From Sphingopyxis sp. MSC1_008 (GTDB lineage: Bacteria > Pseudomonadota > Alphaproteobacteria > Sphingomonadales > Sphingomonadaceae): a stretch of DNA of 64,000 nt. Numbering within the stretch: the first letter of the stretch is position 1; each line of letters starts with the position of its first letter. The stretch is taken from positions 186,001-250,000 of the forward strand of contig NZ_JALPRD010000006.1 in NCBI RefSeq assembly GCF_023197165.1. Direction: 5' to 3'. Shown here one piece after another: positions 49,320-50,040 of this stretch. Made by a program: the position numbers and the translations under genes. The notes beneath the pieces are model-generated. The model was not told the DNA's origin. It made no database searches and saw nothing but the letters and a program-made list of their open reading frames with translations.

Positions 49320-49781
49320 GTGACCGATATCCGCAGCGACGTCCCGCTCGCCGATTTCCGGGTGCAGGAGCGCGTCCGCGTCCGTTTCAACGAGATCGAC
49401 GGCCAGAATATCGTCTTCAATGCCAATTATCTCGTCTATGCCGACATCGGCGTAACCGAATATTTCCGGGCGCTCGGTGAGGGGCAGCCCGGGCCCTATT
49501 TTCACCAATATGGTACAGATATTCGCGAGACGCATTGCGAGATCGATTATCACGCCCCGGCGCGACTCGACGAGCTGATCACGATCGCGGCGCGAATCAG
49601 CCGCTTCGGGCGCACGAGCTTCACGGTCCATTGCGGTATTTTCCGCGCAAATGAGCGGCTCACCGATATCGAGATCAGCTATGCCCATCTCGACACCGAC
49701 AACGGGACGCCGACGCCGCTGCCGGGCAGCTTCATTGCCGAAGTCAGGCGATTCGAAGCAAGGACGCCCGTGCAGGACTGA
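49320..49781 (+). CDS. Acyl-CoA thioesterase of the 4HBT (hotdog) family
   Basis: 153 residues with a GTG start 5 bp after the previous stop. VRFNEIDGQNIVFNANYLVYADIGVTEYFR is the 4-hydroxybenzoyl-CoA-thioesterase fold with the active-site Asp in EIDGQ. Related to YbgC/FadM. Substrate not known. No tol genes follow. Confidence 0.87.
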   Translation: MTDIRSDVPLADFRVQERVRVRFNEIDGQNIVFNANYLVYADIGVTEYFRALGEGQPGPYFHQYGTDIRETHCEIDYHAPARLDELITIAARISRFGRTSFTVHCGIFRANERLTDIEISYAHLDTDNGTPTPLPGSFIAEVRRFEARTPVQD

Positions 49782-49821
49782 TTCGGATGTTCCGAATCGA
49801 CCCTCTCAACCAAAAAGGTCG

Positions 49822-49849
49822 AAAAAAAAGGGCCACCCGAGGGTGGCCC
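49822..49849 (-). terminator. Minus-strand Rho-independent terminator
   Basis: GGGCCACCC and GGGTGGCCC pair perfectly over 9 bp around a 2-nt loop (49830-49849). On the minus strand the stem is followed by eight T residues (49829-49822). In the plus direction there is only GTGAAAGTTTT, so the strong direction is leftwards, serving a transcript from 49995 and not the plus-strand thioesterase. Confidence 0.85.
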
Positions 49850-49872
49850 GTGAAAGTTTTGGGAGAGGATGC

Positions 49873-49995
49873 CTAAAAGGCGAGTTTGTTATTGCACTGC
49901 ACAATGATTGCTGCAACTGCGAAATGAACATCTGCTATTGCATTTTTTGCAATCGAGAACGTTTCCAGCGTCCATTTGGCGCAATCACCCGCCAT
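49873..49995 (-). CDS. Candidate 40-residue small protein
   Basis: ATG at 49995 is preceded by GAGGGGG with about 6-nt spacing. The product begins MAGDCAKWTLETFSIAKNAI and ends IIVQCNNKLAF. It looks like a single amphipathic to hydrophobic helix (about residues 16-34), with two cysteines. A strong terminator with eight Ts lies 23 bp after the stop. I do not recognise it. The region is less GC-rich than its surroundings. Confidence 0.5.
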   Translation of the reverse strand: MAGDCAKWTLETFSIAKNAIADVHFAVAAIIVQCNNKLAF

Positions 49996-50040
49996 TCGCG
50001 CCCCCTCGCAAATTGTCGCGACATCGCCTAAATTGGGGGG

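Follow-up and report, generated by a model that had tools for sequence, protein, structure and literature searches.

One short stretch of the minus strand in a 64-kb window (the whole piece of Sphingopyxis DNA that was analysed) raises the question of whether the bacterium makes a new 40-codon membrane-type peptide there, or whether the signals that suggested such a gene belong to something else. The sequence-only reading of this DNA had proposed a small gene with its own Shine-Dalgarno sequence and terminator, and as a description of the letters it was accurate: on the minus strand an ATG lies at 49995-49993, preceded at a spacing of 5 nt by GAGGGGG at 50007-50001, the frame runs for 40 codons to a TAG at 49875-49873 (the whole ORF occupying 49873-49995), a terminator follows 23 nt past that stop, and the peptide, MAGDCAKWTLETFSIAKNAIADVHFAVAAIIVQCNNKLAF, does contain the two cysteines and the hydrophobic stretch that were claimed for it. 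The terminator had been said to point away from the plus-strand thioesterase gene, and only on the minus strand does the T run come 3' of the hairpin. An open frame of this length is nevertheless weak evidence by itself, because 72 ORFs of at least 30 aa overlap the same 6 kb around the locus, and a search of the peptide against Pfam returned no match.

The answer, in my opinion, is almost certainly that this locus is the gene for the trans-acting small RNA SuhB (Rfam RF00519, the alpha-r8/MmgR group) and not a peptide gene. The RF00519 (suhB/MmgR) covariance model matches positions 49815-49888 of the minus strand with 50.1 bits, compared to a gathering score of 41; the match spans the full model (positions 1-77 of 77) and, with 74 bases, covers more than the terminator hairpin alone. 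SuhB is an already known kind of regulator, and what is described here is a member of RF00519 in a new strain, with the family membership, the structure, the conservation and a promoter box shared with the phasin gene all established in this analysis. According to a review (PMC6563040), SuhB of Sphingopyxis granuli TFA is 61 nt long, represses thnR in an Hfq-dependent manner as part of carbon catabolite repression, and is expressed more strongly when growth is fast. S. granuli NBRC 100800 has this syntenic locus too (L084), and the stretch that opens with TGCC and closes with the last T measures 61 nt there, like 49882-49822 here; the 5' end of the RNA was placed from the TFA length together with conservation. 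Combined with the RF00519 match, this gives a putative 61-nt transcript at 49822-49882 on the minus strand, beginning ~113 nt below the ORF start, with the RF00519 match itself beginning at 49888. The fallback of the sequence-only reading, a small RNA of about 170 nt, thus stands in one respect and falls in another, since an RNA does end at that terminator but its length is ~61 nt; the longer form was rejected because of where the RF00519 match begins and ends and of how conservation varies along the locus. Among 80 genomes of the genus, 78 give an RF00519 match and 76 exceed the curated cut-off, as do 70/70 of those with a completeness of 90% or more and a contamination of 5% or less, while in a sample of the family it is present in 179 of 199 genomes, 161 of them over the cut-off, compared to two of 14 control genomes, one of them over the cut-off.

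The predicted fold of the 61-nt RNA, with a z of -4.74 (200 shuffles), begins with a hairpin of 4 bp, leaves a C/U-rich stretch open and closes with the terminator; the RF00519 layout, in which a 5' hairpin and a terminator hairpin with its U tail flank an unpaired stretch rich in C and U, is complete. The predicted 5' hairpin, GCCU-UUU-AGGC at 49871-49881 on the minus strand, holds the TAG of the ORF, and its four pairs are invariant in 32/32 aligned RNAs; since it never varies, covariation speaks neither for nor against it and supports the terminator only. This intrinsic terminator (49822-49849, minus strand) is formed by GGGCCACCC-TC-GGGTGGCCC at 49849-49830 and then eight Ts at 49829-49822. 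It had been described as a perfect 9-bp stem with eight Ts, and the nine complementary positions and the T8 are indeed there, but nine pairs would leave a loop of 2 nt, and the predicted fold has eight pairs and a 4-nt loop. In 32 aligned RNAs, hand-chosen for spread from 58 collected by seed pattern, 95.5% of the terminator cells are paired and seven of the nine pairs are changed on both sides; 33 cells are double-changed compared to a shuffled mean of 10.2, the observed score being attained in 0/500 shuffles, 3/500 shuffles show as many further pair types, and sliding the partner strand destroys the pairing. Under lax criteria, sites resembling a terminator are unremarkable (two in 1.3 kb compared to 1.7 in shuffles); with a strict criterion that was chosen after seeing the hairpin (a perfect 8-bp stem, a loop of 3-8 and at least seven Ts) this is the only such hairpin in the window, and none occurs in 100 Markov-1 simulated windows.

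Between the two hairpins lies the C/U-rich single strand AUCCUCUCCC (49861-49870, minus strand), complementary to the Shine-Dalgarno-like GGGAGAGGAU, and the analogy with related RNAs suggests that it acts as the seed. Agreement is 1.00 across 65 orthologues in the block 49872-49863, and AUCCUCUCC with C or U as the next letter occurs in 28/28 high-scoring and 20/20 lower-ranked RNAs from other genera of the family. These counts come from RNAs that were not collected by the seed pattern: the 28 loci are the best-scoring among the family matches listed, and the 20 were hand-picked, all over the cut-off, with one of them (L213) looking identical to the copy on plasmid pCAR3 discussed below.

The orthologous loci are also where the proposed peptide gene dissolves. 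Of 108 loci, all but L002, L004, L005 and L108 contain the RNA core, and 65 of these 104 were kept as distinct after duplicates, contained loci and those with less than 200 nt upstream were dropped; the genus loci are the best-scoring 30 of each list, with the most divergent members (such as G012, G059, G074 and G075) outside the 65, and among those found via the neighbouring 155-aa protein, 39 of the 44 named loci are Sphingopyxis. Contrary to what a 40-codon gene would lead one to expect, the ATG and the 40-codon frame occur together in only two of the 65, namely the window itself (L001) and L038, and the closest relative (L036, 95% DNA identity) has ACC in place of the ATG and a stop after 7 codons. 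The TAG, on the other hand, is at the aligned place in 64/65 loci because the RNA hairpin GCCUUUUAGGC includes it. Letter agreement, scored as the match to the window's letters per 10 bases with gaps counted as differences, is 0.37-0.66 per block from 50002 to 49953, the would-be coding region for the N-terminal half of the peptide, then 0.67-1.00 from 49952 to 49803, covering the promoter and the RNA, before it drops to 0.28-0.36 at 49792 and lower positions, past the RNA. The G-rich stretch is conserved (0.92, block 50012-50003) even where no ATG follows and is therefore not the ribosome site of the reported ORF; it perhaps comes from the promoter of the divergent plus-strand gene. A test proposed earlier had required that relatives both break the frame and lose the hairpin; they break the frame but retain the hairpin, which is the pattern expected of an RNA gene.

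The genes on either side are a 4HBT thioesterase and the 155-aa protein, which has no Pfam match. Upstream of the plus-strand gene for the latter there are two strongly conserved blocks, with agreements of 0.95 (50032-50023) and 0.92 (50012-50003), and the region 50003-50032 is perhaps its promoter. Directly after the thioesterase stop, in a poorly conserved region, another hairpin, GATTCGGATGTTCCGAATC, is located at 49781-49799 and has no T run.

Considering these observations together, it is highly improbable that a peptide gene lies here: the ATG with its G-rich stretch at 5-nt spacing, the open frame, the terminator 23 nt after the stop and the frame retained in L038 do compose the picture of one, but a gene present in two of 65 loci and broken in the closest relative, with no Pfam match and a presumed ribosome site that is conserved independently of its ATG, is hardly a gene. 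A dual-function RNA of ~170 nt, starting upstream of 49995, translated in this strain and carrying SuhB at its 3' end, would reconcile both ideas, and the frame is open in this genome and in L038 while the 174-nt form folds with a z of -2.55. Such an RNA is nonetheless exceedingly unlikely, with a frame that is not conserved, an agreement that stays low over 50002-49953 and rises at 49952 as it would at a promoter, and a published length for SuhB of 61 nt (PMC6563040). One could also argue that the hairpin is merely the terminator of a neighbouring gene and that there is no RNA gene at all, given that the thioesterase gene ends ~40 nt away on the other strand; I give this practically no credence, as the T run is on the minus strand side only, RF00519 covers 74 bases, and the seed and the 5' hairpin upstream of the terminator are conserved. 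The identification as SuhB replaces a doubtful new protein and accounts for the signals that were first seen.

What controls this RNA? A simple sigma-70 consensus scan found no promoter at the locus, and judging by position only, the presumed promoter occupies 49889-49917 on the minus strand, with GTTGCA as -35 (49917-49912), a spacing of 17 nt and CAATAA as -10 (49894-49889). The motif TTCGCA(C/G)TTGC is found upstream of the RNA in 64/65 genus loci, and TTCGCACTTGC is upstream in 23/28 and 11/20 loci from other genera and in four of six plasmid or second copies. Overlapping the presumed -10 is a predicted box for PhaR, TGCAGTGCA, at 49893-49901 on the minus strand (-19 to -11 of the inferred 5' end). 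A TGCRNYGCA box occupies the -10 place in 65/65 distinct Sphingopyxis SuhB promoters examined, and two such boxes, 46-49 bp apart, are present in 30/30 phasin loci, taken from 39 genomes with a phasin match. Paired boxes occur in two of 156 comparison loci, which are not independent since many represent one syntenic region, and both of the two are the same phasin promoter fetched again. It is this TGCRNYGCA box over the -10, common to the SuhB and phasin promoters, that is new in this work. Exact matches to TGCASTGCA number 20 in the 4.75-Mb genome compared to nine for the reversed control; two of the 20 precede the only Phasin_2 gene of the genome, and among the 15 that were fetched several lie inside coding-like sequence. 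The genome also has a PHB_acc_N (PhaR) gene. In other genera the box is near the -10 in 7/28 and 4/20 promoters, and anywhere within 60 nt in 8/28 and 5/20, where ~0.03 would be expected per 60 nt; because this is a minority of promoters, PhaR control, if real, is not family-wide.

The published consensus for PhaR, derived from footprints and a promoter alignment, is TGCRNYGCASMA (PMC6201568), and a study on Sinorhizobium meliloti gives a palindrome with the core YGCRNYGCR, a clear shift by PhaR in EMSA of the promoter fragments tested, including that of mmgR, and the abolition of PhaR shifts when the palindrome was removed or mutated (PMC12542648). Because PhaR shifts the mmgR fragment in that work, I consider that PhaR probably controls the SuhB promoter here as well, a prediction made from sequence. 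It is less likely, although by no means far-fetched, that the RNA is SuhB and the box is bound by a different TGCA-reading regulator: the case for PhaR binding is built on a short motif, and a second palindrome, TTGCA-N5-TGCAA at 49938-49952, is upstream in 65/65 loci, the form present here, TTGCANNNNNTGCAA, being the sole occurrence in the 4.75-Mb genome. PhaR is favoured by a motif that fits two published consensus sequences as well as the phasin promoter, and by its binding to the S. meliloti mmgR promoter in vitro (PMC12542648).

If PhaR is indeed the regulator, one can envision a circuit in which RNA polymerase would start SuhB near 49882, and PhaR, a repressor that binds PHB granules, would sit on TGCAGTGCA over the -10 and hold SuhB down when PHB is low, while with plentiful carbon the granules would titrate PhaR away and SuhB would be made; Hfq would then hold SuhB, and the exposed seed AUCCUCUCCC would pair with the Shine-Dalgarno regions of target mRNAs and block their translation, keeping secondary catabolic genes off for as long as good carbon lasts. 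The boxes shared with the phasin gene suggest that PHB granules switch SuhB on through this titration of PhaR, and the S. meliloti data allow the same for MmgR. For this strain, I infer that PhaR occupies the box, where exactly the RNA starts, how the seed pairs and what it targets. If true, the circuit would connect PHB with carbon catabolite repression, a link that has been missing; no PhaR-SuhB link in Sphingopyxis was found in the literature searched, which was judged by title and did not extend to the primary SuhB paper.

The seed complement GGGAGAGGA is not enriched genome-wide (26 sites compared to 25 for the reversed control), and two of the 26 are the strands opposite the two RNA genes. 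Five lie 0-7 nt before the start of an ORF of at least 100 codons, and these provide weak leads to possible targets, with Pfam matches to Acyltransferase (L196), GST (L197), Cytochrom_C (L198) and OMP_b-brl (L212) and no match for the fifth (L192); a sixth start-proximal site (L206) lies on the strand that faces the second copy of the RNA. Direct pairing of SuhB with the phasin mRNA was a further candidate, and over all 30 loci taken together it is unsupported: pairing with the start region is not above shuffles (mean z +0.51), and one of the 30 loci has a z below -1. The published effect of MmgR on phasins is therefore unsupported here as direct pairing.

Among the other exact TGCASTGCA sites, one is followed after 33 nt by a gene that has COX2 and COX_ARM matches (L114, C2:351418), which is possibly a PhaR target by this prediction; Bradyrhizobium cyoA is listed as PhaR-repressed in PMC6201568. 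The ORFs near two further sites (the N-terminal part of L124, and L116) look by eye like glycosyltransferase or sugar-related genes, an idea that was dropped as neither has a Pfam match.

Placed beside the known systems, this RNA is closest to SuhB of S. granuli TFA, with which it shares the genus, the Rfam name and the inferred length, and nothing that was compared differs. MmgR (alpha-r8) of S. meliloti belongs to the same Rfam family and is alike in its 5' hairpin, C/U-rich single strand and terminator; its promoter has a PhaR-type box as here, with PhaR binding shown in S. meliloti, but MmgR has a published effect on phasins whereas no pairing with the phasin mRNA is predicted here. The seeds also differ, since AUCCUCUCCC does not exactly match the MmgR/alpha-r8 10-mer UUUCCUCCCU, while the present variant (with C or U as the last letter) is found in 48/48 RNAs from other genera of the family; it is because the 10-mer is not matched that the RNA is filed under RF00519/SuhB instead of being called a strict alpha-r8. 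SisA-D (alpha-R8) of Caulobacter crescentus exist as several genome copies with unlike promoters, as is the case here, and likewise carry a C/U-rich seed, although of a different variant, and SisA represses many mRNAs in nutrient-rich conditions. Furthermore, the alpha-r8 RNAs of Caulobacter and the rhizobia have a gene for N-formylglutamate amidohydrolase (FGase) adjacent in most species, whereas none is beside the RNA here, and the three FGase matches are on C8 and C1, with none on C6. The description of alpha-r8 used for this comparison is from PMC12559287.

The RNA is not confined to one place in the genome. A second RF00519 copy, also over the cut-off, is located at C14:34051-34125 (42.8 bits), and 14 of the 80 genus genomes have at least two copies over the cut-off. 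A third match, at C1:176177, scores 29.3 bits, is below the cut-off and lacks the CUCUCCC seed; it was not counted, and by my own reading it is a terminator that follows the end of an alanine-rich coding region. Plasmid records that match the C14 copy number 38, with 25 of them predicted to be conjugative, and the RNA of the window itself matches 25 plasmid records. Five plasmid copies were fetched (pSfKp5.2, pNL1, pDB-1, pCAR3 and Croceicoccus p2) and all pass RF00519 with 43.0-51.6 bits; no gene is listed at these copies in the table used, which contains no RNA genes. In three of the five (pNL1, pCAR3 and Croceicoccus p2) the RNA directly follows ssb, and on the two Sphingopyxis plasmids it is not beside ssb. 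Both pNL1 and pCAR3 I take to be catabolic plasmids. The PhaR box was found within 60 nt upstream in 0/6 when the five plasmid copies and the C14 copy were searched.

It is tempting to put these pieces together, and I would offer the following tentatively, rating it at slightly under an even chance: PhaR would read PHB, SuhB would relay the signal to catabolic mRNAs, and the plasmid copies, being uncoupled, could impose or buffer repression of the imported catabolic genes. Provided that these copies are transcribed and lie outside the control of PhaR, this would be a simple plasmid route to the carbon control of the host. As for the surroundings of the second copy, the C14 gene lies near an ORF that resembles an MFS transporter by eye.
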